Assembly: GCA_002361535.1 (NCBI GenBank)
Contig: DETG01000108.1
Coordinates: forward strand, 54,265-77,479
Length of the DNA: 23,215 nucleotides
Direction: 5' to 3'
DNA from: Prevotella sp. UBA3294
GTDB taxonomy: Bacteria > Bacteroidota > Bacteroidia > Bacteroidales > Bacteroidaceae
The notes below the pieces were generated by a model, which did no database searches, was not told where the DNA came from, and saw nothing but the letters and a program-made list of their open reading frames with translations. The position numbers and the translations under genes were made by a program. This document shows positions 3,152-23,198 of the stretch, in pieces (the stretch's first letter is position 1; each line of letters starts with the position of its first letter).

Positions 3152-3231
3152 GAAAACAGTGTTTTCGGCACTCAAAAACGGTGTTTTCAGCCCATGAAAA
3201 CATTGTTTTGGAACATAAAAACAATGTTTTC
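3152..3231. repeat. Array of four 15-bp palindromes with about 22-bp period
   Basis: Units at 3152-3166, 3174-3188, 3196-3210 and 3217-3231 follow the pattern (G/A)AAAACnnTGTTTT(C/G). Start-to-start distances are 22, 22 and 21 bp, about two helical turns, so all sites face the same side of DNA. The array fills the gap between the convergent lrp-type gene and ruvB. It could be a protein-binding array or a set of short bidirectional hairpins. It is not a CRISPR, because the spacers are only 6-7 bp. Confidence 0.8.
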
Positions 3232-3324: not shown

Positions 3325-4362
3325 TCATTCAAAGAGACCGGGTTCCATGATATTACCCGTATAGGGATTGCGCCCATAATGGCGATAGGCCAATTCGGTG
3401 GCCATGCGCCCCCGTGGGGTGCGTTTGATGAATCCCTCCATGATGAGGAAAGGCTCATAGACCTCCTCCACAGTACCCGCATCCTCGCCTATGGCGGTGG
3501 CGATGGTACCCACGCCCACTGGTCCTCCCTTGAACTTATCAATGATGGTGAGCAAGATCTTATTATCGATCTCGTCTAAGCCATACTGGTCGATGTTTAG
3601 GGCAGAGAGGGCGATCTTGGTGATATCGGTATTGATGCTGCCGTTGCCTTTTACTTGTGCGAAGTCACGCACACGGCGCAGCAAGGCATTGGCGATACGG
3701 GGCGTTCCCCTTGAGCGACGTGCGATTTCCATAGATGCCTCATCGGTGATGGGAACTTTCAGGATATAGGCCGACCGTTTGATGATCTTCTGCAGCACTT
3801 CTGGCTCATAATATTCCAAATGCATGTTGATGCCGAAGCGTGCACGAAGCGGTGCGGTGAGCAGTCCGCTACGCGTGGTGGCTCCCACTAAAGTAAAGGG
3901 GTTCAGGTCGATCTGGATGGAACGCGCCGACGGTCCTTTATCGATCATGATATCAATACGGTAGTCCTCCATGGCAGAATACAGATACTCTTCCACCACG
4001 GGTGACAGACGGTGGATCTCATCGATGAAAAGCACATCGTTCGTCTCCAACGAAGTGAGGATACCAGCTAAGTCACCGGGCTTGTCAAGCACTGGTCCGC
4101 TGGTGATCTTGAATCCCACACCTAACTCGTTGGCGATGATGTTCGACAAGGTTGTCTTGCCCAGTCCGGGAGGACCGTGCAACAAGGTGTGGTCGAGGGG
4201 TTCGCCGCGGTATTTAGCCGCTTCCACGAACACTTCCAAGTTCTCTACCACCTTCTTCTGTCCACTGAAATCACTGAAGCGCAGAGGGCGCAAAGCGTTC
4301 TCAAACTCCTTCTCTGTCGATGACAGCGTCTCTCTTCTTATGTCGAAATCTTCGTTCATCAT
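3325..4362 (-). CDS. ruvB: Holliday junction branch migration ATPase RuvB
   Basis: RuvB is the hexameric AAA+ motor that, with RuvA, drives branch migration of Holliday junctions in recombination repair. The 345-residue length is normal. Visible motifs are Walker A GPPGLGKT at 63-70, Walker B LFIDEIH with D114-E115, sensor 1 GATTRSG at 160-166, the arginine-finger region PLRARFG at 171-177, and the C-terminal winged helix ending [16 protein letters not shown]. Two adjacent ATGs (4362 and 4359) could start it, with little effect. It is the last gene of the tsaB-to-ruvB run and is separated from rseP by a purine-rich repeat spacer. Confidence 0.97.
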
Positions 4363-4379
4363 TATTCAAATCTTTCATC

Positions 4380-4449
4380 TCTCCTCTCATCCCTCCTCTT
4401 TCATCTCTCTCCTCTTTTCTCTCCTCTTTTCTCTCTCTCCTCTCTCCTC
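4380..4449 (-). repeat. GAGGAGA heptamer repeats in the rseP-ruvB spacer
   Basis: On the plus strand TCTCCTC occurs exactly at 4380-4386, 4408-4414, 4420-4426, 4436-4442 and 4443-4449, with a variant at 4392-4398. Linkers between the units are also purine or pyrimidine pure. On the sense strand of the operon this reads GAGGAGA, which looks like a chain of Shine-Dalgarno cores upstream of ruvB. The same heptamer is found inside the EptA-like gene at 13617-13681. Confidence 0.85.
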
Positions 4450-4455
4450 TATTTA

Positions 4456-5832
4456 TTACATATACCCTAACCACCTAAGGATATCATTCAGGTTAGCCAC
4501 CACCATAAGGAGGATGAGGATGGTGAAGCCCACATATTCGGCCTTGATCATGAAGTTTTCGCTGGGCTTGCGTCCTGTGATGATCTCGTAAAGGAGGAAC
4601 AGTACATGACCGCCGTCGAGGGCAGGGATGGGTAGGATGTTCATGAAGGCAAGGATGATGGAGAGGAAGGCTGTCATGCGCCAGAACATCATCCAGTCCC
4701 ATACCGGTGGGAACAGACTGCCGATGGCTCCGAAGCCGCCTAATGACTTGGCCCCGTCGGCTGTGGCCACATATTTCAGGTCGTTCACATAACCGCGGAG
4801 CACGCCCAGCCCATATTTGATGCCTGCCGGGAAGCTCTCGAAGAAGTTATATGTCAGTTGGGTGGGCTTGTAGTAGGTGGCGATGGACGTCTGACTCACG
4901 CCTAAGCGCATCTCCGGGGAGAGCACCACCTGTGTGGTATCCGTTGTTCCGCTTTTCTTCGACTGATAAACCAGTTGTACGGTACGGGTCTTTAGACTGT
5001 CAGCACTGCTCTTAGCCGTAGAGAGCACATCATTGAGGACTCCTATCTGATAGACGAACTCGTTCCAGGAGTCAACAGGTTTATTGTTGATGGCAAGAAT
5101 CTTGTCACCTTTCTCCATACCGATCTTGGCAGCAGGAGTCTCGGATAGCACACTGTCGATCTCTGCAGGCACGAACGGACGGGCAAAGGCTGGGTCGGCC
5201 TGCAGCATCTTGATCAGACTCATCTCCTCAGGCATCTGGATCGTCACCTCGCGGTTGCCGCGCTTCACTGTGATGGTTTGGGCATCGGCCAAATGGCGGA
5301 ACACGTCCACATCATAGCGATCGAAGGCCTTACCGTCGTAGGCCACGAGAATATCATGATCCTGGAAACCGATCTGTTTGGCCTCGGTGTTGAATTTGAA
5401 TCCCATCGACATGTCTTTTACGGCGATATACTCATCCCCCCAGTGGAAAAGCACCATCGAATAGATGAACAGGGCTAAGAGGAAATTCACGAGCACACCA
5501 CCGATCATAATGAGCAGACGCTGCCATGCCGGCTTACTGCGGAACTCCCATGGTTGCTCGGGCTGTTTCATCTGCTCGGTGTCGAAACTCTCGTCGATCA
5601 TACCGGCAATTTTGCAATAGCCGCCTAAGGGAAGCCATCCTACGCCGTATGCTGTATCACTGTTTTTGGGTTTGAACTCGAAGAGGTGAAACCAAGGGTC
5701 GAAGAACAGGTAGAATTTCTCTACGCGCACCCCGAATAGCTTGGCAAAAAAGAAATGGCCACCCTCATGGAGAAGAACCAGGAGAGAGATGGCGAGCATG
5801 AACTGTAACAGTCTGATCAAAAATACTTCCAT
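4456..5832 (-). CDS. rseP: Site-2 intramembrane zinc metalloprotease RseP (M50 family)
   Basis: A 458-residue membrane protease that cuts transmembrane segments of substrates such as anti-sigma factors. The zinc motif HEGGH is at 22-26 in the first membrane helix. The second motif NILPIPALDGG, with D406 as the third ligand, precedes a membrane helix near the C-terminus. Between them lies a periplasmic part with a PDZ-like domain around residues 215-300 (SETPAAKIGMEKGDKILAINNKPV). The length is typical of Bacteroidota RseP. It starts 3 bp after the dxr stop, so the two genes are co-transcribed and probably translationally coupled. The dxr-rseP pairing is common in bacteria. Confidence 0.94.
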   Translation of the reverse strand: MEVFLIRLLQFMLAISLLVLLHEGGHFFFAKLFGVRVEKFYLFFDPWFHLFEFKPKNSDTAYGVGWLPLGGYCKIAGMIDESFDTEQMKQPEQPWEFRSKPAWQRLLIMIGGVLVNFLLALFIYSMVLFHWGDEYIAVKDMSMGFKFNTEAKQIGFQDHDILVAYDGKAFDRYDVDVFRHLADAQTITVKRGNREVTIQMPEEMSLIKMLQADPAFARPFVPAEIDSVLSETPAAKIGMEKGDKILAINNKPVDSWNEFVYQIGVLNDVLSTAKSSADSLKTRTVQLVYQSKKSGTTDTTQVVLSPEMRLGVSQTSIATYYKPTQLTYNFFESFPAGIKYGLGVLRGYVNDLKYVATADGAKSLGGFGAIGSLFPPVWDWMMFWRMTAFLSIILAFMNILPIPALDGGHVLFLLYEIITGRKPSENFMIKAEYVGFTILILLMVVANLNDILRWLGYM

Positions 5833-12375: not shown

Positions 12376-14265
12376 ATGAAGCGGAACATTGCCTTCCTTG
12401 TATTCATGTACGCATTGGGCATCATAACGGCTTATGCCGTATTGCCTGAGACACGAAATGCGAAGATCTATGAGCATCTCTTCACGGAGTTGCTGGTAGA
12501 TGTGGGTGTACTGTTCCTCTTACTCTCGATCCTGCCACAGAAAATCAGTGTATGGGTGAAGCGCGTATGCTATGTGGTTGCCTATGTCGTGGCTCTCATC
12601 GACGTGTATTGTTTCGTGAAGTTCGATAGTACGATAACCCCTACCATGTTGTTGCTGGTGGGCGAGACCAACGGTCAGGAGGCCACCGAATTCCTACAAT
12701 CTTATCTCTCTCCCGATATTCTCCTGAGTAAGGTGGGCTGGGTATTGCTGGTGTTGGTGGCGCATGGAGTGTGGAGTGTTATTTCGAGGAAGGACGTTTC
12801 GAGGAGTGTGGAGTGTGGAGTGAGAAGTGAGAATAGTACTGAGATACAGGATTCATATACAAAGTCACTTGTTCCTAATAGCAAATCTCACTCCTCACTC
12901 CTCACTCCACACTCCTCAATAATTTTATTGTTATTCTTCCTCGCCATTTTCCTCTTCTCCCTCATCGATTGCTGGTCAAACAAAGTAGCATTTCATCGAT
13001 TGATGACTTATGAGACGATCGGTGAGGTGGAGCACGAACTGACGGAGAAGAACAGGGCTGTACTCTACCAACCTCTCTACCGATTAGCATTCAGTATCCG
13101 TGCCAATCAGCTCACGGCAAAACAGGTAGATAAACTGATTGCCGGGATCGACAAGGTGGAAGTGGATAGCTGTGCCTTCACCACACCGCATATCGTACTG
13201 ATTATCGGAGAGAGCTACAACCGTCACCACGCTCAGCTCTATGGATACGACAAGGCCACCACACCGCGTCAAATGAAAAGGGCACAACGGGGGGAACTGA
13301 TCGCCTATCAGGATGTGGTGGCTCCATGGAACCTCACCAGTTTTGTGTTCAAACATCTCTTCTCGCTCTATACTGTCGGCGATTCCGGAGAATGGTGTGA
13401 CTATCCCTTGTTCCCCATGATCTTCCGACAGGCTGGCTATCATGTAACCTTCCTCACCAACCAGTTCCTGCCCCAAGCCAAAGAGGCGGTATATGATTTC
13501 AGCGGCGGTTTCTTTCTGAATAACCCTACCCTCAGCAAAGCAATGTTCGACACCCGGAACGAGAAACTGTGGTACTATGATGAGGGTATGTTGAAAGAAT
13601 GGGACGAGGTGTTTAAGAGGAGAGAGGAGAGAGGAAAGAGGAAAGGAATAGAAGAGGAAAGAGGAGAGAGGAAAGAGGAGAGAAATAAAAGAGGTGAGCT
13701 GACGATCGTCCATTTGAAGGGACAGCACCTTGACTACCGCACGCGGAGTCCGAAGGATCGGTGGCATTTCAAGCGCGATGACTATGACAGGCCCGACCTG
13801 CGTTCTGGGGAGATCCAACGCGTGGCCTACTATGATAATGCTATCCTGTATAACGACTCGATCGTTGACCAGCTGATCCAACGGGTGGAGAACGAGAATG
13901 CCGTGGTGATCTATGTGCCCGATCATGGCGAAGAATGCTACGGTCCTGGGGTACATTTCTGTGGCAGGATGCACAGTACGGAGATCACCTACCGATTGGC
14001 CCATGAAGAGTTCGACATCCCCTTCTGGATTTGGTGCTCTCATTCCATGATGGTGAAAGAGCCAGAACTGTATGAAGCCATCGTCAAAGCGAAGGATCGG
14101 CGGTATATGACCGATGCGCTGCCGTTCCTGCTGATGCACCTGGCAGGTATCTCCTCGAAGGACTATCGTCGGGACCTGGATGTCCTGAGCACTGAATACC
14201 GTGAGCAACGTCCACGGATCCTGAAGAACACCACGGATTATGACAAACTGAAGAAAGAGAAATAA
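12376..14265 (+). CDS. EptA-like phosphoethanolamine transferase / membrane sulfatase with two repeat-derived insertions
   Basis: A 629-residue inner-membrane enzyme of the EptA/sulfatase fold. About five hydrophobic helices lie at roughly 5-23, 38-54, 62-80, 119-135 and 182-198, followed by a periplasmic catalytic domain. Likely metal ligands and nucleophile are E279 in LIIGESYNRHHAQLYGY, T321 in NLTSFVFKHLFS, and D516-H517 in YVPDHGEE. Relatives move phosphoethanolamine from phosphatidylethanolamine to lipid A or glycans; the acceptor here is unknown. Family members are about 540-550 residues. Two stretches account for most of the excess: residues 131-181, from GGAGTGN repeats in inverted arrangement, and residues 414-440, a K/R/E/G-only run from GAGGARA heptamers just before the strand LTIVHLKGQH. 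Its stop abuts the ATG of the next gene. Confidence 0.85.
   Translation: MKRNIAFLVFMYALGIITAYAVLPETRNAKIYEHLFTELLVDVGVLFLLLSILPQKISVWVKRVCYVVAYVVALIDVYCFVKFDSTITPTMLLLVGETNGQEATEFLQSYLSPDILLSKVGWVLLVLVAHGVWSVISRKDVSRSVECGVRSENSTEIQDSYTKSLVPNSKSHSSLLTPHSSIILLLFFLAIFLFSLIDCWSNKVAFHRLMTYETIGEVEHELTEKNRAVLYQPLYRLAFSIRANQLTAKQVDKLIAGIDKVEVDSCAFTTPHIVLIIGESYNRHHAQLYGYDKATTPRQMKRAQRGELIAYQDVVAPWNLTSFVFKHLFSLYTVGDSGEWCDYPLFPMIFRQAGYHVTFLTNQFLPQAKEAVYDFSGGFFLNNPTLSKAMFDTRNEKLWYYDEGMLKEWDEVFKRREERGKRKGIEEERGERKEERNKRGELTIVHLKGQHLDYRTRSPKDRWHFKRDDYDRPDLRSGEIQRVAYYDNAILYNDSIVDQLIQRVENENAVVIYVPDHGEECYGPGVHFCGRMHSTEITYRLAHEEFDIPFWIWCSHSMMVKEPELYEAIVKAKDRRYMTDALPFLLMHLAGISSKDYRRDLDVLSTEYREQRPRILKNTTDYDKLKKEK
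12766..12917. repeat. GGAGTGN heptamer repeats forming a 32-bp inverted repeat inside the EptA-like gene
   Basis: GGAGTGT units occur at 12766-12772, 12773-12779, 12803-12809 and 12810-12816, then GGAGTGA at 12817-12823 and GAAGTGA at 12824-12830. The opposite orientation (TCCTCAC-type units) fills 12886-12917. The arms 12801-12832 and 12886-12917 are complementary at 30 of 32 positions around a 53-base loop. A 9-bp direct repeat TTTCGAGGA lies at 12782-12790 and 12797-12805. The element stays in frame and encodes the loop between the fourth and fifth membrane helices. Confidence 0.85.
13617..13681 (+). repeat. GAGGARA heptamer repeat inside the EptA-like gene
   Basis: Four heptamers run from 13617 to 13644, then a 9-bp break (13645-13653), then four more from 13654 to 13681. 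Each is GAGGAGA or GAGGAAA. The translation is a charged run of K, R, E and G. The unit is identical to that in the rseP-ruvB spacer. Confidence 0.9.
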
Positions 14266-15363
14266 ATGATGAGTAAGACGGAATCGATGGCACTACGCGG
14301 CTTGGCGATCTTAGGAATCGTGCTGCACAACTATTGTCACTTCCTGGGCTTCGCGGTGAAAGAGAACGAATATACCTTCACGGCAGAGAAGCCTATGCAA
14401 TTGATGGAGAAAGTGATGGCGATGGACAAAGACTTGTTCATCCATCTATTCTCATTCTTCGGGCACTATGGCGTTCCTATCTTCCTGTTCATCAGCGGTT
14501 ACGGACTGGTGAAGAAGTATGAGGGTGCGGGGGTACGGAAATGCGAAGGTGCGGGGTACTGGATATGGAAACATTTCGTGAAGTTGTTCCGTCTGATGAT
14601 CTACGGCTATGTGCTTTTCGTAGTCGTGTATTTCGCTCGTTACGACAGTGCACCGAAGGTGTTCACCCTTGACAGGATCGCAGCACAGCTCACGATGACC
14701 ATCAATTTCCTCTATACGGTGCCCGATCAGGCCATCAGACCCGGGCCTTACTGGTTCTTCGGACTGATGATTCAGTTGTATATCCTCTATCGTCTGGTGT
14801 TCTTCCGTTGGCGCAGCCTACTCCTCCTCGCTGTGTTCGTGGCGGTATGTTGGCTATTGCAGACGTGGGCCACACAGTATAACCCCGTGTCGTTTAACCT
14901 GCTGAACTACATCCGATATAATTTTGTAGGAGGAATCCTACCCTTCTGCATGGGTATCGCCTATGCCCGTTATTTCCGATATACGCTGACGGTGATGCAG
15001 TGGACAGGCATCGTCATACTCTCGGCCGTGGCCGTCTTCACCGGCAGTTTCTCTGTCTATAGCTGGTTGTGGGTGCCCCTGTTCGTTATCACGGGTGCAC
15101 TGGCCACTGTGAAGCTTTTGCCGCAGTGGATGCTGAAGCCCTGTGTGTGGTTCGGTGGTATCTCCTCGATGTTGTTCGTGATGCATCCGTTGATGCGTGA
15201 GTTGATCATCGCCCACTACCGCAGGATAGACATCTACTGGGGGATCGTCATCTACCTGCTCTCTGCGGTGGCGTTATCAATGCTGTTTCAGTTTGTGCTG
15301 GAGAAAAGTAATGCCCTGAAGGGTCGAAACCTCGCCATTGGCGACAAAGTAATAAAGAAATGA
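14266..15363 (+). CDS. Acyltransferase-3 family membrane protein (first copy)
   Basis: A 365-residue protein with about ten hydrophobic helices and the N-terminal signature of acyltransferase family 3: MALRGLAILGIVLHNYCHF, where the arginine and the histidine in the first helix are the usual catalytic features. The segment YGVPIFLFISGYGLVKKY is also typical. Such enzymes O-acylate sugars or lipids at the membrane. The ATG directly follows the stop of the EptA-like gene, and its stop overlaps the next ATG (ATGA), so translation is coupled. Residues about 86-97 (EGAGVRKCEGAG) come from an octamer repeat at 14522-14553 in a cytoplasmic-type loop and look inserted. The acceptor is unknown. Confidence 0.85.
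   Translation: MMSKTESMALRGLAILGIVLHNYCHFLGFAVKENEYTFTAEKPMQLMEKVMAMDKDLFIHLFSFFGHYGVPIFLFISGYGLVKKYEGAGVRKCEGAGYWIWKHFVKLFRLMIYGYVLFVVVYFARYDSAPKVFTLDRIAAQLTMTINFLYTVPDQAIRPGPYWFFGLMIQLYILYRLVFFRWRSLLLLAVFVAVCWLLQTWATQYNPVSFNLLNYIRYNFVGGILPFCMGIAYARYFRYTLTVMQWTGIVILSAVAVFTGSFSVYSWLWVPLFVITGALATVKLLPQWMLKPCVWFGGISSMLFVMHPLMRELIIAHYRRIDIYWGIVIYLLSAVALSMLFQFVLEKSNALKGRNLAIGDKVIKK
14522..14553 (+). repeat. Octamer tandem repeat inside the first acyltransferase gene
   Basis: Four imperfect 8-bp units (14522-14529, 14530-14537, 14538-14545, 14546-14553) follow RRRRTRCG. They encode Gly/Ala/Arg-rich residues between KKYE and YWIWKHF, which would otherwise adjoin. Confidence 0.7.
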
Positions 15364-16385
15364 AGAAGATAGAGTTCTCTGATTTCAGTAAATACCGTTC
15401 TGCCCTGATGGGTGCAGCGATGCTGTTCGTGATGTTCTTCCATGTATATATGCCAAAGAGCTACTTGATGTACGGGGTGGTGCGTTGTGGCAATATCGGA
15501 GTGGATATGTTCCTTTTTCTGAGTGGCATCGGACTTTGGTATTCCTGGACGAAGCAACCATCACTGAAGCATTTCTTCCTCCACCGTTACCTGAGGATCT
15601 ACCCGGCATGGCTGATCATGGCAGCCTTGTATTATATTCCCAACCACCTGTATGTGGCAGGTGGCGGCTATAGTCCGAACATCGGTCATTTAGTGGCAAA
15701 CATCCTGTTCAACTGGAGTTTCTGGCGCATAGACGACCTCACGTTCTGGTTCATTCCCGCCATTATGATGCTCTACACCTTTGCCCCAGCCTACATGGAA
15801 CTGATACGTAAGCACCCCTCCTACCGCTGGCTACCGGTGCTCTTCATGGTATGGGCTATCATGGTACAGTATTATCCTCCTGTGCACCGCGCTGTAGGAC
15901 ATGTCGAGATCTTCTGGAGTCGCATCCCTATCTTCCTGATAGGCATCAACTGCGGTCAGTGGGTGAAAGAGAAAAGGAGCATGGAGGGTGCCGCCCTTTG
16001 GGGAATCCTGCTGCTCTTCGTCCTGTCGTTCATGATGTGCATCGAGTTCGAGAACCACTGGCGTGGCAAGTTCCCGCTGTTTTTAGAGCGGATGGTCTAT
16101 ATCCCGTGCAGCATCACGGCGATGCTCCTTCTCTGTCGTGCCTTTCATTATGCTCCCCGCTGGCTCTTAGCATTCCTCACATTCCTCGGCGGTATCAGTC
16201 TGGAACTCTACCTGATCCATATTCAGTTCGTACTGAAATATGTGAAGGAGTATCACCTGGGCTACTGTCTCACCGCTTTGCTGATGATCGCGATCAGTAT
16301 CCCATTAGCGTGGTTGCTGAAGAAGGTGGTGCCCAACCTAAAATCCACCCCAGCCCTCCCAAAGGAAGGGAGAAAGGACAGCTAA
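15360..16385 (+). CDS. Acyltransferase-3 family membrane protein (second copy)
   Basis: A 341-residue membrane protein with about ten hydrophobic segments. The first helix contains R13 and the histidine of MLFVMFFHVYMP. GVDMFLFLSGIGLWYSW followed by FFLHRYLRIYPAWL matches the acyltransferase-3 (OatA/WecH-like) pattern. It differs clearly from the preceding copy, so the two probably have different acceptors or form a pair. It starts in a 4-bp ATGA overlap with the first copy. The last 15 residues (LKSTPALPKEGRKDS) are not family-like and are encoded by a REP-like palindrome at 16345-16374, which has evidently extended the reading frame. Confidence 0.85.
   Translation: MKKIEFSDFSKYRSALMGAAMLFVMFFHVYMPKSYLMYGVVRCGNIGVDMFLFLSGIGLWYSWTKQPSLKHFFLHRYLRIYPAWLIMAALYYIPNHLYVAGGGYSPNIGHLVANILFNWSFWRIDDLTFWFIPAIMMLYTFAPAYMELIRKHPSYRWLPVLFMVWAIMVQYYPPVHRAVGHVEIFWSRIPIFLIGINCGQWVKEKRSMEGAALWGILLLFVLSFMMCIEFENHWRGKFPLFLERMVYIPCSITAMLLLCRAFHYAPRWLLAFLTFLGGISLELYLIHIQFVLKYVKEYHLGYCLTALLMIAISIPLAWLLKKVVPNLKSTPALPKEGRKDS
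16345..16374 (-). repeat. REP-like palindrome, copy 1 (in the acyltransferase C-terminus)
   Basis: The stretch contains CCCTCCC, AAAGG and AAGGGAG and, read on the minus strand, aligns with the copies at 20104-20137 and 23077-23113 (a CTCCC stem followed by GGGAGGG and TGGGGTGG). It is in the opposite orientation to those two copies. Confidence 0.65.
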
Positions 16386-16390
16386 TCGAT

Positions 16391-16444
16391 AATTCGCCTA
16401 ATTCATAGAGAATCCAAAATTTGTCTAATTCGTCTAATTCGTAG
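16391..16444. repeat. Nonamer tandem repeat (AATTCGTCT type), six units
   Basis: Six head-to-tail 9-bp units fill the spacer between the second acyltransferase and the UbiA-family gene. Five begin AATT; the consensus is AATTCGTCT or AATTCGTAG, with one diverged unit at 16409-16417. The remaining 34 bp before the next ATG are purine-rich without a clear promoter. Confidence 0.85.
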
Positions 16445-16478
16445 AGGGGAAAGGGAATAGTGAAAAATTAAAAGAGAT

Positions 16479-17357
16479 ATGATAAAGAGTGCACTCAAAT
16501 TAATCCGACCGAATCAGTGGTTGAAGAATGTTTTTGTGGTCATGCCGATGTTCTTCGGTGGCAGTCTGCTGGACACCCAGGCTATCTATGCCGTGGTGGT
16601 TACCTTCTTTGCCTTCAGCTTCATTGCCTCGGCGGTGTACTGTTTCAATGACATCATCGACGTAAAATACGACCGTCGTCACCCTGTGAAATGTCACCGT
16701 CCGATAGCCAGCGGTGCTATCACCCTGCCACAGGCCTACAGTCTGATGGCACTGATGATCTTCCTGTCATTGGCTACGCTGATGCTGTTGAAAGTGAACA
16801 CATGGGTAGTGGGAGGTATCATCTTAGTATATTTTGTGTTGAATCTCGCCTATTGTGTCTGGCTCAAGCAGCAAGCCATCGTGGATGTATGTGTGGTAGC
16901 CTTCGGTTTCGTCCTGCGCCTGTTGGCTGGTGGTGAGGCCACCGAGGTAACGTTGAGTAAGTGGTTGGTGCTGATGACCTTCCTCATCACCCTGTTCATG
17001 TCATTTGCCAAGCGTCGTGATGATGTGATTCGTATGGAAGAGACGGGGGAAGCCCCGAGGAAGAACACCATCCGTTATAACCTGACATTCATCAACCAGG
17101 CCATCACCATCACGGCATCGGTCACTTTGGTATGTTATATCATGTACACGATCAGTCCTGAAGTAACGGCACGTGCCCATACCGACTACCTCTATCTAAC
17201 TTCCGGTTTTGTGTTATTGGGGTTGTTGCGTTATATCCAGTTGACGGTAGTTGACAAACGCAGTGGTGATCCCACGAAGATCATGTTGCGCGACCGGTTC
17301 ACACAGGTAGTAGCCGTGCTCTTTGCCCTGTCGTTCTTCATCATCATCTATCTTTAG
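16479..17357 (+). CDS. UbiA-family prenyltransferase, decaprenyl-phosphate phosphoribosyltransferase-like
   Basis: A 292-residue membrane protein with about nine hydrophobic helices. The start LIRPNQWLKNVFVVMPMFFGG and the Asp-rich site N57-D58, D61, D65 (FNDIIDVKYD), followed by HPVKCHRPIASG, resemble the Rv3806c type, which transfers 5-phosphoribose from PRPP to decaprenyl phosphate. A later FAKRRDDV loop agrees. Most UbiA proteins prenylate aromatic rings instead, but the LRPxQWxKN start and HPxKxxRPIASG favour the phosphoribosyl type. No epimerase (DprE1/E2) or phosphatase partner is visible. It follows the envelope genes after 93 bp and ends 6 bp before the convergent cobQ stop. The activity is an inference from motifs. 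Confidence 0.8.
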   Translation: MIKSALKLIRPNQWLKNVFVVMPMFFGGSLLDTQAIYAVVVTFFAFSFIASAVYCFNDIIDVKYDRRHPVKCHRPIASGAITLPQAYSLMALMIFLSLATLMLLKVNTWVVGGIILVYFVLNLAYCVWLKQQAIVDVCVVAFGFVLRLLAGGEATEVTLSKWLVLMTFLITLFMSFAKRRDDVIRMEETGEAPRKNTIRYNLTFINQAITITASVTLVCYIMYTISPEVTARAHTDYLYLTSGFVLLGLLRYIQLTVVDKRSGDPTKIMLRDRFTQVVAVLFALSFFIIIYL

Positions 17358-17363
17358 TGTTGT

Positions 17364-18890
17364 TCAAGTGAGGATCTGATAGAGGCGATTCATGTCAACC
17401 GCCTTTCTCACCCTTTCTGCAAGCAGGTTGTATTGTTGCTCTTTATAGGCGGTATAGTCGAACGACTGCCTTTGTTCCCCTTTCCCGACAAATGGTGCCA
17501 ACAGATAATCCACCACCACAGGATTGTCGAGGATCCCATGCATGTAGGTACCGAAACATTTTGAAGAGAGGAACGTCCCTTCGGTGGAGCCGTCGGGCAA
17601 CGTGTTGAGTGTGGCATGTGGCATCGGTAGAGAGGAGTCGGGGGTGTAGCATGTAGATTGTCCCATGTGAATCTCATACCCTTTGCACTCCTCCCCGTAG
17701 TGTAGGAAGCGGAAGGTGGTCTGCACAGTACGTTTCTCTCCGCTCATCGTAGTGCTTACAGGCAGCAGTCCTAACCCTGGTACACGTTCGATATCCCCTT
17801 CCACATGGTAAGGGTCGAGTATTTCCTGTCCCATCATCTGGTAACCGCCGCAGATTCCCATCACCGTGGCACCGTCGTGGTGTGCCTTCAGGATGGCCTG
17901 TGCCGCTCCGTTACGTCGCAGTTCGATGAGATCGGCGATGGTGTTTTTCGACCCGGGCAGGATAATGATGTCGGCTTTCTGCAGTTCCTCGGTATTGTTG
18001 GTATAGAAAAGGTGTGCGCAAGGGTCACGTTCCAGTGCATCGAAGTCGGTGAAGTTACTCAGCTGTCGTAGCATCACCACTGCGATATTGATCTTTCCCT
18101 GGGCCACCTCCCGTGCTTTCAGTTCCAGCGACACACTGTCCTCCTCCTCGATATGGATATCTTTGAAATAGGGCAATACGGCCAGAACGGGGATGCCGCA
18201 CAACTCTTCGATCATCCGCCGTCCCTCCTCGAAGAGAGAGCTGTCACCGCGAAACTTATTGATGATAATGCCTTTCACCCGTTGTCTTTCCTCTGGTGAC
18301 AGGAGCATCAGTGTGCCATACACGCTGGCGAAGACTCCCCCACGATCGATGTCTGCCACGAGGATGACATCGGCCTTCGCATACATCGCCATGCTCATAT
18401 TCACCAGGTCGCGGTCCTTCAGGTTGATCTCCGCAATACTCCCCGCCCCCTCCATGACGATGGGGTTGTAGCGTGAGGCCAGACGGTCGAAGGCGGCATG
18501 GGCCTCACAGCGCAGTAAGTCCCTGTCAATGCCTCTCCTTTCTCCTTGGTCCTTGCTCCTTCCACTGTCAAAATACTCCCTTGCGTGGTAGTTCCCGATC
18601 GGTTTGCCGTTGAGCACCACCTGTGAGGTATGATCGCTGTTGGGTTTCAGCAGGATGGGGTTCATATCAGTATGACAGGCGATGCCTGCTGCCTCGGCCT
18701 GTACCGCCTGTGCCCTTCCGATCTCCAGTCCTTCGGGTGTGGCATACGAGTTCAAGGCCATGTTCTGTGCTTTGAACGGTGCCGGATGGTAGCCGTCCTG
18801 TCGGAAGATCCTACAAAACGCTGTGGCCACGATGCTTTTGCCGACATCACTGCCAGTTCCTGCGAACATGATGGGGTGTAGTGGAGTCAT
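17364..18890 (-). CDS. cobQ: Cobyric acid synthase CobQ
   Basis: CobQ amidates adenosylcobyrinic acid a,c-diamide at four side chains using glutamine and ATP, in cobalamin synthesis. The 508-residue product has the N-terminal synthetase domain with the P-loop-like AGTGSDVGKS at 10-19 and FKAQNMALNSY. The C-terminal class I glutamine amidotransferase domain has nucleophile C347 in GICGGYQMMGQ and catalytic H451 in YMHGILDN. Residues 110-119 (GRSKDQGERR) are encoded by heptamer repeats at 18561-18534 and look inserted between NYHAREYF and DRDLLRCEAHAAFDRL. No other cobalamin gene is in the window. The ATG overlaps the stop of the upstream gene (ATGA), so translation is coupled. Confidence 0.95.
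   Translation of the reverse strand: MTPLHPIMFAGTGSDVGKSIVATAFCRIFRQDGYHPAPFKAQNMALNSYATPEGLEIGRAQAVQAEAAGIACHTDMNPILLKPNSDHTSQVVLNGKPIGNYHAREYFDSGRSKDQGERRGIDRDLLRCEAHAAFDRLASRYNPIVMEGAGSIAEINLKDRDLVNMSMAMYAKADVILVADIDRGGVFASVYGTLMLLSPEERQRVKGIIINKFRGDSSLFEEGRRMIEELCGIPVLAVLPYFKDIHIEEEDSVSLELKAREVAQGKINIAVVMLRQLSNFTDFDALERDPCAHLFYTNNTEELQKADIIILPGSKNTIADLIELRRNGAAQAILKAHHDGATVMGICGGYQMMGQEILDPYHVEGDIERVPGLGLLPVSTTMSGEKRTVQTTFRFLHYGEECKGYEIHMGQSTCYTPDSSLPMPHATLNTLPDGSTEGTFLSSKCFGTYMHGILDNPVVVDYLLAPFVGKGEQRQSFDYTAYKEQQYNLLAERVRKAVDMNRLYQILT
18534..18561 (-). repeat. Heptamer tandem repeat inside cobQ, four units
   Basis: On the plus strand units TCTCCTT, TCTCCTT, GGTCCTT and GCTCCTT run head to tail at 18534-18561. 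On the coding strand the consensus is AAGGAGN. The segment encodes CobQ residues 110-119, where relatives have a shorter linker as far as I recall. Confidence 0.75.
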
Positions 18891-19546
18891 TTCTGATGGA
18901 GTGGCACTTTCTTCCCTTTGAGGATCGCCTCGAAATAAGGTGGCTCATCTCTCAGTTGGATGTCATCGTAAATAAAGTCGGCCACCACCGTGTCTTTACG
19001 ATCGGGCAGGATCAACCCCATCTTCCCGTTTTTCTGTGCGATGATGGGCATCATGATCAAGTCATCGACATAAGTATAACAGGTGCGCAAGAAGTCATAC
19101 TGCGGTGATACGAGTATGTTACCTTTGAAATCTTTGATGCCGAATTTCCCGTCTTGCTCGAACACCTCATGGTATTGGATATATTTGCCTTTGATCCTTT
19201 TCAGGTAGAACTCCATTTTCTGTCGGTTGTTCACCATCTCCAGCATATACTCGAAGGTATCGCAGTAGTTAGCGATAGCCCGTGCCAGCACTAACTTGAA
19301 GTCCAGTCCGCTGATGGATTTCCTATTCAAGTCGATATAGCGTGCGATGGCCTCCTCCTTCTGCTCCACGGTGAGTGAAGACAGTGCCTCTTCGAATTTC
19401 TCCATAATCCGCTTAGTACCGCTCATCCCTTTGATATAGCGGTGCATCTGGCGCCCCATCTCCTGACACACGAACTTATCGATCTGCCGGATCTCAATGG
19501 GATCGATATACATCGATTCGAAGTTCTCTTGTGTTATTTTGCTCAT
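18887..19546 (-). CDS. WG-repeat-like hypothetical protein upstream of cobQ
   Basis: A 219-residue soluble protein without signal peptide. The N-terminal two thirds are charged and helical (about 1-120), ending RQKMEFYLKRIKGKYIQYHEVF. The C-terminal part has two segments like degenerate WG/KWG repeats: DGKFGIKDFKGNILVSPQYDFL and NGKMGLILPDRKDTVVADFIYDDI. WG repeats are thought to mediate binding, but no specific function can be given. It has an unusually clear AGGAGG 7 bp before the ATG (19559-19554) and a good promoter. Its TGA overlaps the cobQ ATG. Coupling to cobQ may reflect shared regulation rather than a cobalamin role. Confidence 0.75.
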   Translation of the reverse strand: MSKITQENFESMYIDPIEIRQIDKFVCQEMGRQMHRYIKGMSGTKRIMEKFEEALSSLTVEQKEEAIARYIDLNRKSISGLDFKLVLARAIANYCDTFEYMLEMVNNRQKMEFYLKRIKGKYIQYHEVFEQDGKFGIKDFKGNILVSPQYDFLRTCYTYVDDLIMMPIIAQKNGKMGLILPDRKDTVVADFIYDDIQLRDEPPYFEAILKGKKVPLHQK

Positions 19547-19577
19547 GGTAAATCCTCCTGTTTTCTTTCGTTTGCTA

Positions 19578-19609
19578 CAAAGGTACGCATTTTCTTCGAA
19601 TCGACCAAA
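19578..19609 (-). promoter_or_regulatory. Promoter of the WG-like/cobQ operon
   Basis: On the minus strand TTTG (19609-19606), a spacer of 20 bp and TACCTTTG (19585-19578) match the Bacteroidota consensus. Transcription would begin about 25 bp before the ATG at 19546. An AGGAGG ribosome-binding site (19559-19554) is present, uncommon in this phylum. Confidence 0.78.
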
Positions 19610-20083
19610 AAAGCATCGTCTTTTTTATCATAGACTGAATGTTTCGCATGTAAACCTCTCCTCTTGTGTTGAAAGTAAAAACTGAAAGAAATAGACTTGT
19701 TTGTAAGGGCCGCAAGCGGCTTTTATTGGAAAGAAATTAGAATAATTAGAATAATTGAACTTTCGGATGTTTGTGGGGATCGCCTACGGCGAGAAATTTT
19801 ACAAAATCTTACAAAATTCCATATGGCTTATTTGTTTGATTTTGTTTGGATTTTGTATGATTTCTGCCCGCAAGGGCACTAAAACAACGAAAGATTTAAC
19901 AACCGAAACATGAATAAAAAAAATTAAACCAGAAATTGAATTTTTTTGAAACGAATGTGAATAATATGGATAATCAATTATGCACATTAATTTCCATATA
20001 GAGTTTTTGTGTAGATTGATCTGTCACTCTCTCATAAATGCAACATTTTCAGTATTTTGTAGTAGAGTATTCAGATTTTTTAT
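19610..20083. other. Gene-poor spacer with nested inverted repeats
   Basis: The 612 bp between 19547 and 20158 contain no ORF with family features. Within it are GCCGC hairpins at 19709-19720 (GCCGCAAGCGGC), 19782-19790 (GCCTACGGC) and 19866-19877 (GCCCGCAAGGGC), two AATTAGAAT nonamers, and an imperfect inverted repeat (arms 19800-19818 and 19839-19857, both carrying two ATTTTGT/ACAAAAT motifs). An outer TTTCGG/CCGAAA pair lies at 19761-19766 and 19903-19908. The rest, 19911-20083, is AT-rich with no structure that I can name. Confidence 0.6.
19735..19757. repeat. AATTAGAAT nonamer repeat
   Basis: Two exact units (19735-19743 and 19744-19752) and the start of a third. The AATT-led 9-bp design is shared with 16391-16444 and 23172-23198. 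Confidence 0.7.
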
Positions 20084-20091
20084 TATCTTTG
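20084..20091 (+). promoter_or_regulatory. -7 element of the bspA-like gene promoter
   Basis: TATCTTTG fits TAnnTTTG. A TTTTG at 20055-20059 is too far upstream (24-bp spacing), so the -33 element is weak or absent. The predicted leader of about 60 bases contains the REP-like palindrome at 20104-20137. Confidence 0.6.
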
Positions 20092-20103
20092 CAGCAGAAT
20101 CCC

Positions 20104-20137
20104 GGTTCCCCTCCTACAGAGGGGGTAGGGGAGCCTC
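20104..20137 (+). repeat. REP-like palindrome, copy 2 (in the bspA leader)
   Basis: Two alternative hairpins are possible: CCCCTC (20108-20113) with GAGGGG (20119-20124), or the outer GGTTCCCC (20104-20111) with GGGGAGCC (20128-20135, one G-U pair). The element ends about 21 bases before the ATG at 20159. Confidence 0.7.
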
Positions 20138-20158
20138 CAATCTCAAAACTATCCGCTT

Positions 20159-22984
20159 ATGAAACCAACATCCATTATTCAACGACTGGTTATCCTATTG
20201 ATAACCCTGATGAGCGCCATCGGCGCTAACGCCCAAGAGGCCTATGCCTGCTATACAGAGTCGAACACGACGCTCACGTTCTACTACGACAATCTGCGCA
20301 GCAGCCGCACGGGCACGACCTACAGCCTGAACAAGGACGTCATGACTCCCGGCTGGGAATCCGACCAAACCAACAGATCTGTGACCCAGGTGGTCTTTGA
20401 CTCCTCGTTCGCCGATGCCCGCCCGACGACTACCAACCGTTGGTTTAACTATATGCAGAAACTTGAATCCATCACGGGCATGGAGTATCTGAACACCAGC
20501 GAGGTGACTATCATGTCTTATATGTTTCAGAATTGTACAAAGCTTACGAGCCTTGATGTGAGCCATTTCAACACGTCAAAGTTGATTGACATGAAATACA
20601 TGTTCTATAATTGCAGTCAGCTGACCGTCCTCGACTTGAGCAGTTTCAACACGTCCAAGGTGGCCTATATGAATTCGATGTTCTATGACTGCTATTGTCT
20701 GGAAACCATCTATGTGGACACTGGCTGGAGCACGGCTAAGGTGACGAGATCCGAAAATATGTTCGCTTTCTGCAACAATCTGGTAGGTGGCCAGGGCACC
20801 GAATACGCTTCATGCTGGACAGACGACGCGACCTGCGCCCACATCGACGGCGGCACGAGCAACCCGGGCTACTTCACCGACATTTATGCGCCAAGACCCT
20901 ATGCCTGCTACACCCCGTCGAACAAGACGCTCACGTTCTACTACGACACCCAGCGCGATAGCCGCACGGGCACAACCTACGATCTGAACACGAACGGCAG
21001 CAATACCGGTTGGGACACCGATGGCACCAAATCCAAAGTGACCAAAGTGGTCTTTAAATCCTCGTTCGCTGAAGCTCGCCCAAGGACTACTTTCATGTGG
21101 TTTTACAATATGGAGAATCTCCAATCCATCACGGGCATGAGTTACCTGAACACCAGCAAGGTGACCGATATGGCTTATATGTTTACGAATTGTACAAAGC
21201 TTACGAGCCTTGATGTGAGCCATTTCAACACATCCCGGGTGTATGAGATGTTCGCCATGTTCTCTGGCTGCACCAGCCTGACAACCCTTGACCTGAGCAG
21301 CTGGGAAACGTCGCAAGTGTATTCTTTAGCATCTATGTTTAGTGGCTGCATAGGTTTGACAAGCCTTGACCTGAGCAGTTTCAACACGGCCGAGGTGGAA
21401 CATATGGATTACATGTTCAGTGACTGCACAAATCTGAAAACCATCTATGTGGGCAATGGCTGGAGCACGGCTGAAGTGATGGAATCCGCAAGTATGTTCG
21501 GGAATTGCACCAGTCTGAAGGGCGGCAAGGGCACTACCTATGATGCCAACCACGTCGATGCGACCTACGCCCGCGTCGATGGTGGCACGAGCAATCCCGG
21601 CTACTTGACCGCTGTAGCAAAGGCTTACGCCATCTACACGTCTGAGAACAAGACGCTCACGTTCTACAACGACGATCAGTTCGCCTTCCGCACGGGCACC
21701 ATCTACGACCTGAATTCGGACGCAGACTACAACGATCCTGATTGGAGAAATGATGGCACTTTTGGCAATGTGACCCAGGTGGTCTTTGCCCCCTCGTTCG
21801 CTGATGCCCGCCCGACGACGACTTACGCTTGGTTCTATTACATGTACAATCTTCAGTCCATCACGGGCTTGAATTACCTGAACACCAGCAAGGTGACCAA
21901 TATGGCTTATATGTTTATGAATTGTACAAAACTTACGAGCCTTGATTTGAGTAGTTTCAACACGTCCAAGGTGACTGATATGGGTTACATGTTTGAGAAT
22001 TGCCGACTGAAGAGTCTTGACTTGAGCAGTTTCAATACGTCGAAGGTGACTAATATGAGTTCCATGTTTGAGTATTGCCTCAACCTGCGAACCATTTATG
22101 TGGGAAGCGGGTGGAACACGGCAGCCGTGACAGTGTCCGGTTACATGTTCTATAACTGTCACAGCCTGGAGGGTGGCCAAAGCACGACTTACGATGAAAG
22201 CCACGTTGACAAGACCTACGCCCGTATCGACGGGAATGGTGGGCCGGGCTACTTTACCGCTGCGGGTACTGAGCCCTACGCCTGCTATCAGAATGGAACG
22301 CTCACGTTCTACTACGACAACCAGCGCGATAGTCGCACGGGCACGACCTATGACCTGAACACAGGTGCTAGACCTGAGTGGCTTATTAACGGAACCAATG
22401 CCAATGTGACCAAGGTAGTCTTTGATTCCTCATTCGTTGGTGCCCGTCCAACGATCACAAGTAATTGGTTTAATGGTATGGGGAATCTTATAATTATTGA
22501 GGGCATGAACTACCTGAACACCAGTGAGGTGACTAATATGTTTGGTATGTTTGTTAATTGTGAGCAATTGACAAAACTTGACCTGAGCTGCTTCAATACA
22601 TCCAAGGTAAGTAACATGAATCTTTTGTTTTCCGGTTGCAAAAAGCTGCGAACCATCTATGTGGGCAATGGTTGGAGCACGGCAGCAGTGACGCAATCAA
22701 CAAATATGTTCTCTAACTGCACCATTCTGGTGGGCGGACAGGGCACGACCTGGAGTTCCTCGAACCCGATAGACAAAACCTACGCCCACATCGACGGTGA
22801 AGGTGGTCCAGGCTACTTCACCGCTCGTACTACAGGCATTGCCACAGACCTTCATCAAGTAACAAGTGATAAGCAACAGGTTCAAAGCAATGAGTGGTAC
22901 ACGATTGATGGTAGGAAGTTGAATGGAATGCCGGCCAAGAAGGGCGTGTATATTCAAAACGGGAAAAAGACAGTAATACATTAA
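20159..22984 (+). CDS. BspA-like secreted protein with DUF285 leucine-rich repeats, four modules
   Basis: A 941-residue surface or secreted protein. A signal peptide occupies about 1-25 (RLVILLITLMSAIGANA, predicted cut before Q26), with no lipobox cysteine. Four tandem modules follow, beginning near Y29, Y248, Y490 and Y707. Each opens with a YACYT...TLTFYYDNQRDSRTGTTYDLN-like segment and carries DUF285 repeats of about 25-26 residues (LDLSSFNTSKVTDMxxMFxNC). Each ends with TIYVGNGWSTAAV, GGQGTTY and a DxTYAxIDGG..GYFT motif. The C-terminus, NEWYTIDGRKLNGMPAKKGVYI plus a basic end, resembles Bacteroidota type IX sorting tails. Relatives bind host proteins or other bacteria (Tannerella BspA); the ligand here is unknown. 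The gene stands alone, with its own leader and a terminator-like hairpin. Confidence 0.88.
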   Translation: MKPTSIIQRLVILLITLMSAIGANAQEAYACYTESNTTLTFYYDNLRSSRTGTTYSLNKDVMTPGWESDQTNRSVTQVVFDSSFADARPTTTNRWFNYMQKLESITGMEYLNTSEVTIMSYMFQNCTKLTSLDVSHFNTSKLIDMKYMFYNCSQLTVLDLSSFNTSKVAYMNSMFYDCYCLETIYVDTGWSTAKVTRSENMFAFCNNLVGGQGTEYASCWTDDATCAHIDGGTSNPGYFTDIYAPRPYACYTPSNKTLTFYYDTQRDSRTGTTYDLNTNGSNTGWDTDGTKSKVTKVVFKSSFAEARPRTTFMWFYNMENLQSITGMSYLNTSKVTDMAYMFTNCTKLTSLDVSHFNTSRVYEMFAMFSGCTSLTTLDLSSWETSQVYSLASMFSGCIGLTSLDLSSFNTAEVEHMDYMFSDCTNLKTIYVGNGWSTAEVMESASMFGNCTSLKGGKGTTYDANHVDATYARVDGGTSNPGYLTAVAKAYAIYTSENKTLTFYNDDQFAFRTGTIYDLNSDADYNDPDWRNDGTFGNVTQVVFAPSFADARPTTTYAWFYYMYNLQSITGLNYLNTSKVTNMAYMFMNCTKLTSLDLSSFNTSKVTDMGYMFENCRLKSLDLSSFNTSKVTNMSSMFEYCLNLRTIYVGSGWNTAAVTVSGYMFYNCHSLEGGQSTTYDESHVDKTYARIDGNGGPGYFTAAGTEPYACYQNGTLTFYYDNQRDSRTGTTYDLNTGARPEWLINGTNANVTKVVFDSSFVGARPTITSNWFNGMGNLIIIEGMNYLNTSEVTNMFGMFVNCEQLTKLDLSCFNTSKVSNMNLLFSGCKKLRTIYVGNGWSTAAVTQSTNMFSNCTILVGGQGTTWSSSNPIDKTYAHIDGEGGPGYFTARTTGIATDLHQVTSDKQQVQSNEWYTIDGRKLNGMPAKKGVYIQNGKKTVIH

Positions 22985-23012
22985 ACATTATACATTAAAC
23001 ATTAAACATTAA
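22978..23012. repeat. ACATTAA heptamer repeat across the bspA stop codon
   Basis: Five head-to-tail units (22978-22984, 22985-22991, 22992-22998, 22999-23005, 23006-23012), four of them exact ACATTAA and one ACATTAT. The TAA stop of the bspA-like gene is the last triplet of the first unit. Confidence 0.85.
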
Positions 23013-23015
23013 CTT

Positions 23016-23032
23016 CGTTGACTTTTTCAACG
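23016..23032. other. Small hairpin CGTTGA/TCAACG
   Basis: A 6-bp perfect stem (23016-23021 with 23027-23032) and a 5-base T-rich loop, just before the larger hairpin. It has no obvious role of its own. Confidence 0.45.
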
Positions 23033-23035
23033 CTG

Positions 23036-23075
23036 TAAGAAGAAAGAGGATGAGCAATCATCCTCTTTCTTCTTA
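23036..23075 (+). terminator. 18-bp perfect hairpin with GCAA loop downstream of the bspA-like gene
   Basis: Arms 23036-23053 and 23058-23075 are perfectly complementary (18 bp) around the tetraloop GCAA. The downstream arm is U-rich (TTTCTTCTTA), so it can serve as the U-tract of a rho-independent terminator. The upstream arm is A/G-rich. It is the best candidate terminator for the transcript that ends at 22984. Confidence 0.7.
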
Positions 23076-23076
23076 G

Positions 23077-23113
23077 TTCCCCTCCCTTATGGAGGGGTCA
23101 GGGGTGGCCCCCT
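23077..23113 (+). repeat. REP-like palindrome, copy 3 (downstream of the bspA-like gene)
   Basis: CCCCTCC (23079-23085) and GGAGGGG (23091-23097) form a perfect 7-bp stem with a 5-base loop, followed by TCAGGGGTGG and a run of C. It aligns with copies at 16345-16374 (inverted) and 20104-20137. Confidence 0.75.
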
Positions 23114-23124
23114 CTTCTTGTTTG

Positions 23125-23151
23125 TTATCCGTTTGATCCGGCCAATCCGTG
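23125..23151. repeat. Nonamer repeat of nnATCCGnn type
   Basis: Three 9-bp units, TTATCCGTT, TGATCCGGC and CAATCCGTG, run head to tail between the REP-like palindrome and the next repeat. Confidence 0.65.
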
Positions 23152-23171
23152 GTCGTTTTACCTCTGAAAGA

Positions 23172-23198
23172 AATTATCATAATTACCATAATTACGCC
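23172..23198. repeat. AATT-led nonamer repeat, three units
   Basis: AATTATCAT, AATTACCAT and AATTACGCC are head to tail at 23172-23198. They share the AATT-led 9-bp design with 16391-16444 and 19735-19757. No gene is seen from 22985 to the window end. Confidence 0.7.

Follow-up and report, generated by a model that had tools for sequence, protein, structure and literature searches.

Introduction

Why does one stretch of bacterial DNA carry so many short head-to-tail repeats, with units of seven to nine base pairs, both between its genes and in frame inside them? The stretch in question (the window) comprises 23,215 nucleotides of Prevotella sp. UBA3294 (contig DETG01000108.1 of assembly GCA_002361535.1, here C39:54265-77479), whose genome amounts to 2.73 Mb on 133 contigs and is 80.7% complete. 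A preliminary description had seen in these repeats unrelated units produced by a single process. We find instead at least three things mixed together: a palindromic element with heptamer arms, a family of nonamers that looks to have a common border, and solitary arrays. The first of these, element A (positions 12796 to 12922 of the window), is dispersed in the genome, sits in frame within a gene and is probably selfish and non-autonomous, with the behaviour of the Rickettsia palindromic elements.

Two strands of earlier work bear on this question. Rickettsia palindromic elements (RPEs) are described in the accessible text of PMC10969869 and PMC6649704 as palindromes of about 150 bp that form several families, lie in frame within genes and encode a conserved peptide. 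The first of these papers, a review, presents them in its accessible part as the extreme case of in-frame fusion by small inverted repeats, with the same elsewhere only supposed. As for heptanucleotide arrays, most surveyed genomes have more of them than of any other long simple repeat, and the preference for seven nucleotides has been linked to the DNA contacted by the polymerase (Mrazek 2007, as cited in the accessible parts of PMC4679880 and PMC4692102). Direct repeats of TAACTGA are reported from Beggiatoaceae, Cyanobacteria and five Bacteroidetes, along with repeat-free relatives (accessible text of PMC4679880).

A dispersed palindromic element with heptamer arms

The window copy of element A (12796..12922, plus strand) is a full copy within the gene 12376..14265 (plus strand), which encodes a sulfatase-fold protein (PF00884) whose relatives in Prevotella sp. 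are named phosphoethanolamine transferase. It is the one A copy of this gene, is in frame, and encodes the peptide VSRSVECGVRSENSTEIQDSYTKSLVPNSKSHSSLLTPHSSII. Its left arm (12801..12832, plus strand) is an array of AGTGTGG and AGTGAGG units and its right arm (12886..12917, plus strand) an inverted heptamer array, each recognizable both as inverted repeat and as tandem array. The core between them (12833..12885, plus strand) is kept among dispersed copies. The arms are terminal inverted repeats of 32 bp, 94% complementary around a loop of 53 nt, and the copy folds at -62.3 and -67.6 kcal/mol on its two strands (z of -9.5 and -10.5). In short, the arrays at 12801-12917 form the two opposed arms of one palindrome, an element that is dispersed in the genome. 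The preliminary description had passed over them: at 12766, where it placed a heptamer array, Tandem Repeats Finder (score of at least 30, used for all window coordinates) sees one of 2.1 copies only, and the real arrays, inverted relative to each other, lie at 12801-12833 and 12887-12918. Beside the element, TTTCGAGGAAGGACG (12782..12796, plus strand) resembles by eye the left end of a second subfamily, B, in sister species, and may be the remnant of an earlier element.

Thirteen near-full copies of A, including that of the window, are present in the source genome, with lengths of 113-142 bp (about 125 bp for the element) and identities of 76-88% for the other 12. The dispersed copies have a non-repetitive core in common, as established by a copy listing and an alignment (a further alignment, in which three rows are one place, was set aside). 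Copies at the second and third sites of a pseudouridine synthase gene fold at -53.5 to -79.6 kcal/mol. L012:1196-1330 is another element, with arms of AGTGAAG, and two more near-full copies of it match at 78 and 82%.

Six of the 13 A copies lie in frame inside long open reading frames (ORFs). Besides the window gene, the hosts are the pseudouridine synthase gene (PF00849), with three copies, tatD (PF01026), with one, and an ABC ATPase gene (PF00005), with one in reverse orientation. Five of the six share strand and frame and give peptides of one type, SRS(V/E)ECGV(R/W)SEN, with TRSVECGVWSEN in one of them. The host proteins match Pfam domains that look intact (one protein was left out of this matching). 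That sites in coding regions stay in frame, as had been proposed from the letters, holds in the translations.

Different elements at the same sites in relatives

Comparison of orthologous loci with and without an array had been put forward as a check, and such alleles do occur between relatives. A search of 398 genomes of the genus with a sister protein led to four of them, G278, G195, G110 and G331. In the pseudouridine synthase gene, the first site holds A in the source genome and the left part of B only in G278, G195 and G110; the second holds A in the source genome and B in the same three; the third holds A in the source genome and G278, and B in G195 and G110. G331 is element-free at all three. 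At the protein level the three sites are shorter in relatives, with array-style peptides of another kind in L294 (sites 1 and 2) and L309 (site 3); some of these pseudouridine synthase rows repeat one genome.

The window gene behaves likewise at the DNA level: G278 has an A element, and G195 and G110 have at the same site an inverted pair of AAGAAGC-type arrays (104 bp in G195, folding at -60 kcal/mol). The ortholog in G018 carries an AGTGAAG array at a different place (L044); among the 30 ortholog loci used here, 5 fall under the similarity cut and 4 repeat others. For the encoded protein, loops were compared in 86 of the best 120 of 4604 homologs. The A peptide is found in P0001-P0005, and P0006-P0013 have loops of the EEGRRRKDEGRRRKEN...SPSSLLLRPSSF type while being, by eye, very similar to P0004 elsewhere; other groups among the matches listed show further loop types. 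In TatD the loop measures 61 residues in the source genome versus 24-45 in 20 aligned relatives (3 of 23 loci were under the similarity cut), and the loops of L273 and L275 contain the array-like LITHHSSLI and LITSHFSLL. The sites of A insertion are thus loops that vary between relatives.

Subfamily B has ACGAAGG and AGGAAGG units in both arms, around a core related to that of A, and shares with A the ends TTTCGAGGA...TCCTCGAA. At 1e-10 it gives 7 match rows in G278, 10 in G195, 14 in G110 and 1 in G331, where one palindrome can yield two rows; at the same threshold neither the source genome nor G006 has a match. When A is compared with B, agreement is 57-63% for the left arms and 57-73% for the right. 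Within single elements of the pseudouridine synthase gene, the two arms are complementary at 90-100% in six of eight cases. At site 2, for example, the arms are 100% complementary in the source genome and 93% in G278, and the left arms of these two share 63%. A related pattern appears among 20 A rows, in which the variant in one arm matches that in the other at 42 of 60 units compared with 32.9 for shuffled partners (p 0.009), and 9 rows have identical arm patterns compared with 4.0. These figures lend modest support to copying between the arms of one element; recombination with other copies could explain the agreement too.

Spread within and beyond the genus

Further A copies were found at 1e-20 in the sister genomes (40 candidate stretches scored in each): at least 10 in G278, at least 14 in G195, at least 24 in G110 and at least 3 in G331. 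None was found in G006 at this threshold. A presence of family A throughout the genus is rejected, since at 1e-15 it occurs in 3 of 80 genus genomes (the source genome, G018 and G072).

Array-armed palindromes as a class reach further. Three copies in a row of the heptamer AATTGTC occur in Bacteroidota, Cyanobacteria, Clostridia, Anaerolineae, Planctomycetota and others (at least 119 stretches, 80 of them listed), and among 119 such loci three have an in-frame array-armed palindrome within an ORF: a Mur ligase of the isolate Bacteroides stercorirosoris DSM 26884 (L173), an AcrB-type gene (L156) and a BT4734-like gene of a Parabacteroides metagenome-assembled genome (L144). The Mur ligase loop has 32 residues in 50 of the best 120 homologs listed and at least 50 residues in 23 of them, and several of the long loops show an AMQRDGAQ-like core between differing arm peptides. 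When the cores of hairpins with period-7 arms were compared pairwise, 2 pairs matched, so that the palindromes of other organisms are not one core family. Period-7 arms were seen in 35 of 64 hairpins, a proportion that is uninformative on frequency because the loci were picked by the AATTGTC pattern.

As a separate observation, genome G006 has long hairpins (L061 5605-6031 and L029 957-1160) whose arms carry a period-12 array, CGCTGCGTTACC. The hairpin of L061 is nested around a heptamer-armed inverted pair.

Short tandem arrays in a narrow period band

Element A is embedded in a wider excess of short arrays. In our own scan (score of at least 12) the window has six arrays of period 7 and three of period 9. 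In 100 sequences simulated with an order-2 Markov model the averages are 0.01 and 0.00, and not one sequence reached either count. Over 262,489 bp of the source genome, periods 7, 8 and 9 have 17, 8 and 9 arrays, periods 1-6 have 4 in total and periods 10-12 have none; three order-3 simulated sequences gave no array at periods 1-13. Over 584,537 bp the counts rise to 47, 17 and 30, against 13 for the remaining periods of 1-13 summed, but 183,385 bp of this sample are contigs selected for nonamer content and hence biased. The unselected 377,937 bp (nonamer-picked contigs and window removed) still give 26, 11 and 12 versus 5 at other periods of 1-13. Arrays of 7-9 bp are in excess within a narrow period band in the source genome, and the excess over simulated sequence that the preliminary description had anticipated is sharp and genome-wide.

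Elsewhere, 170,118 bp sampled as ten stretches in eight further genomes of the genus hold 13 arrays of period 7, 3 of period 8 and 5 others, with 9 of the 13 in a single stretch. An equal number of stretches (130,805 bp) taken outside the family but within the order hold 2, 1 and 3. Array density is therefore strongly variable.

Nor are the units unrelated, as had been thought: many recur across loci. In the 584,537 bp, AGAGAGG is the unit of seven period-7 arrays and AACTATG of six, and 16 arrays are nonamers of the AATTNGNCG type. Searched for genome-wide, the nonamer frame AATTN5AATTN5AATT is found at 19 sites and the reversed pattern at none. Among 23 occurrences of AATTNGNCG nonamers, 16 begin with CTACG and 15 have CTCTACG, which makes them look like a separate dispersed repeat family with a left border. 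With this border they sometimes form small clusters and inverted pairs (window 16391-16446; L092 574-900).

With overlapping arrays merged, those lying inside ORFs number 16 of 46 for period 7, 1 of 16 for period 8 and 3 of 29 for period 9. The difference between period 7 and periods 8 and 9 together (4 of 45) has a Fisher p of 0.005, and that against period 9 alone a p of 0.03; five of the 16 in-ORF arrays of period 7 come from the window, ORF calling was simple, and differences between families may explain the result. Period-8 arrays of any type are intergenic in 13 of 16 cases. Some octamer arrays are of a nearly self-complementary WWTCGWTA type (L026 802-871, L012 7980-8047, L081 3470-3553).

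Solitary arrays and other sites of the window

For the 93 merged arrays of periods 7-9 in the source genome, an inverted partner within 250 bp exists in 17 cases and a direct partner in 22; with one random stretch per array, inverted partners number 0 of 93. Arrays standing alone would be broken elements or ordinary slippage arrays, and slippage accounts for them fairly well. Cyanobacterial short tandemly repeated repetitive (STRR) sequences are also degenerate heptamer arrays, and are solitary, which distinguishes them from element A. The STRR likeness drawn in the preliminary description is fair for solitary arrays. It fails for the palindromic copies, which share a core, and for the nonamers, which share a border, and on these grounds a single STRR-like class for all arrays is rejected.

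Seven of the ten sites first listed in the window do have an array (4380, 12766, 13617, 18534, 19735, 22978 and 23172), and three do not. At 14522 (octamer) and 23125 (nonamer) neither Tandem Repeats Finder nor our own scan reports one; at 16391 there is none at the coordinate itself, though its neighbour at 16418-16442 is an array. The window gene holds, in frame in its second loop, solitary heptamer arrays of AGAGAGG and AAAGAGG (13616..13683, plus strand), where relatives have different peptides or fewer loop residues. A CTCTCCT-type array at 4371..4450, between the ORFs 3325-4362 and 4456-5832, looks by eye to be of this unit family too. The degenerate octamer stretch at 14521..14560 (plus strand), in an acyltransferase gene (PF01757), is below the array threshold and resembles by eye an octamer array at L082 7609-7632. 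Two members of the AATTNGNCG family lie between genes at 16391..16446 (minus strand), with the borders CTCTACG and CTCTATG. A solitary heptamer array at 18534..18561 (minus strand) is in frame in a CobQ/CbiP-type gene (PF07685, PF01656). The nonamer arrays AATTAGAAT (19735..19756) and AATTACCAT (23172..23195) are intergenic, and the 22 bases of the former recur identically at two places of contig C44. Finally, ACATTAA heptamers (22978..23012, plus strand) span the stop codon of a BspA-like leucine-rich repeat gene. They are rejected as a dispersed family, a three-unit query finding 0 further genome sites at up to 2 mismatches. The 941-aa protein of this gene (BspA-like leucine-rich repeat/DUF285, 20159-22984) is itself internally repeated.

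Two further kinds of repeat were noted in the window. Directly after the ORF 2683-3147, 22-bp repeats are built on AAAACANTGTTTT palindromes (3152-3231); arrays of period 22 number seven in 262,489 bp of the source genome. GC-rich palindromes of the form CCCCTCC...GGAGGGG, at about 20107-20135 and at 23077-23107, look by eye like hairpins of L014, L016, L059, L064 and L065 and are perhaps a further dispersed family.

What kind of element?

Element A is dispersed, resides in frame in unrelated genes, shares its sites with differing array types in relatives and has mostly alike arms. We consider it likely that such an element is selfish and non-autonomous, and that its behaviour is that of an RPE. 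Insertions that keep the reading frame in tolerant loops would survive, and others would be lost or left between genes. During replication the strand could fold into a hairpin in which the arms template each other (quasi-palindrome template switching), and the ladder of 7-bp units could slip by one unit, since a periodic stem slipped by one unit still pairs. Mutual templating and one-unit slippage would together be the reason why the arms stay both complementary and periodic. Recombination between dispersed copies may in addition exchange the arm type at a given site.

Several observations weigh against this reading. Seven of the 13 A copies of the source genome are outside long ORFs or at their ends (L218 and L222 overlap ORF ends), and in sister genomes 6 of the 11 copies examined are in ORFs of at least 110 aa, in differing frames and strands. 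The 3 of 80 genus genomes are a narrow distribution, and 76 of the 93 arrays are without an inverted partner. Arm agreement supports arm copying only modestly, because the A copies are related and locus L229 is listed twice, and at site 2 the arms are just 73% (G195) and 77% (G110) complementary under an automatic arm cut, little above the range of 57-73% in which the right arms of the two subfamilies agree. That the insert-bearing host proteins still work is presumed from their sequences only. A stop-free heptamer array is open in all three frames of its strand because 7 is not a multiple of 3; as a cause of heptamer use, frame-openness is nevertheless rejected, since heptamer units show no open-frame enrichment. 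Lastly, we identified no mobilising enzyme or target duplication, the enzyme search covering Y1 transposase (PF01797) alone: the 80.7% complete source genome has 0 matches, and 5 of 14 control genomes were matched.

The alternative that survives best, though we would entertain it only tentatively, is a miniature inverted-repeat transposable element (MITE), that is, an element derived from an insertion sequence and no longer autonomous, the transposase of that insertion sequence recognizing the terminal repeats and acting in trans. Size, terminal inverted repeats, copy number and clade-limited spread fit a MITE, the ends common to A and B do too, and according to the accessible text of the review PMC10969869 it is not uncommon for intragenic MITEs to fuse in frame. 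On the other hand, at orthologous sites the arms differ among A, B and the AAGAAGC type, which is hard to reconcile with a single transposase of defined sequence specificity, unless it depends on the shared ends alone. By eye, the junctions show no constant target duplication, the element-free sites having diverged, and the missing Y1 match concerns a search that did not extend to DDE transposases. The same absence of PF01797 matches from this incomplete genome led us to reject a system of repetitive extragenic palindromes with their associated Y1 transposase (REP/RAYT).

Could all arrays be ordinary replication slippage, with seven nucleotides favoured by the length of DNA that the polymerase contacts (Mrazek and colleagues) and inverted pairs arising by chance or local inversion? 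The prevalence of heptamers among long simple repeats in many genomes (second-hand, from the accessible parts of PMC4679880 and PMC4692102) and the 76 partnerless arrays agree with this. Slippage cannot, however, yield 13 dispersed copies with a common non-repetitive core, one reading frame shared by unrelated genes, or the common border of the nonamer family, and 17 of 93 inverted partners versus none for random stretches speaks against chance. For the palindromic element the shared core already refutes slippage as the sole source, and as an account of the whole we hold it unlikely.

An RNA or DNA role of the hairpins (as terminators, in RNA stability or as protein-binding sites), with copies inside genes as accidents, seems improbable to us. 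The folds are very stable, and the seven copies not within long ORFs would suit such a role; set against this, loops of about 50 nt would be long for transcription terminators, and the presence of copies in several housekeeping genes, with exchange at one and the same site, speaks for a mobile element. No part of the window matches Rfam at the gathering threshold, and a known RNA family is rejected on that result.

Least probable, in our judgement, is selection of the repeats as flexible charged or Ser/His-rich protein linkers with the DNA pattern secondary: array-style peptides do appear in the first PrmC linker of 109 of 120 listed homologs (the best 120 of 7567, with a permissive pattern written after viewing), but this same linker is filled by different peptides, some of which a heptamer read on its opposite strand explains, the palindrome is largely maintained at the DNA level, and the same array families also lie between genes. 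The PrmC gene concerned (L083 14095-15030) has two solitary heptamer arrays of different families, one in each of two linkers.

Relation to known systems

The closest known systems are the RPEs and, beside them, the Wolbachia palindromic elements. Like an RPE, element A is a stable hairpin of 113-142 bp (within the range of roughly 100-150 bp expected of such palindromes), is found in frame in unrelated genes whose relatives lack the insert, with one peptide type in five of the six in-frame copies, and occurs outside genes too. It differs in belonging to another phylum, in having arms that are 7-bp tandem arrays, and in the various arm types met at one orthologous site. RPE arms lose identity over time, according to the accessible text of PMC6649704, whereas the arms of one A copy tend to agree. 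Element A may well work as an RPE does, a comparison drawn through behaviour and descriptions and not through sequence.

The heptanucleotide literature is related in another way. Here too period 7 dominates, in excess over simulation and in arrays both between and within genes; the difference is that a subset of them forms a multi-copy palindromic element with a non-repetitive core. TAACTGA repeats are likewise dispersed heptamer arrays that include Bacteroidetes, but they have one unit and are mostly intergenic, with no palindromic element seen in the accessible text of PMC4679880. In Xanthomonas, GGGAATC heptamers form arrays with some convergent inverted pairs; they are G-rich and of quadruplex type, and the accessible text of PMC4692102 shows no in-frame mobile element. 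Nematomorpha have inverted repeats in coding sequence that are gained and lost, with arm conversion by template switching discussed; these are mitochondrial, and neither a dispersed core nor arrays were seen in the accessible text of PMC6649704. The preliminary description, which knew of nothing comparable for the group, was therefore wrong as regards arrays as such, given the published heptanucleotide arrays and TAACTGA repeats in five Bacteroidetes (PMC4679880, PMC4692102, in their accessible parts). For the in-frame palindromic form in Bacteroidales, our searches of the open-licence literature turned up no report. The general heptanucleotide excess is already published, and the in-frame palindromic class looks new.

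We know of no heptamer-array arms in ERIC, QMITE1 or the palindromic amphipathic repeat coding sequence, which are set apart from element A by their descriptions. What they have in common with it, in the accessible texts, is being small palindromic or inverted-repeat elements able to add coding sequence, be it the intragenic MITEs ERIC and QMITE1 (PMC10969869) or the palindromic amphipathic repeat (PMC2996958).

Outlook

A broader picture is conceivable, albeit doubtful. Bacteroidales hairpin elements might be self-maintaining, with arms that are short tandem ladders and with one core wearing many arm sequences, the arms being free to change as hairpin copying and one-unit slippage alter the two jointly; they might settle in recurrent 'landing loops' of housekeeping proteins (the PrmC linker, TatD, Mur ligase, pseudouridine synthase, phosphoethanolamine transferase) and, throughout the order, keep supplying proteins with in-frame insertions.

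What the present findings mean is more immediate. Annotators should be aware that an unusual linker in some Prevotella or Bacteroides proteins may be what is left of a DNA element. Behaviour like that of RPEs now appears in gut-type Bacteroidales, in several families, and the anatomy of the element may link the heptanucleotide excess of bacteria with the origin of species-specific loop insertions.

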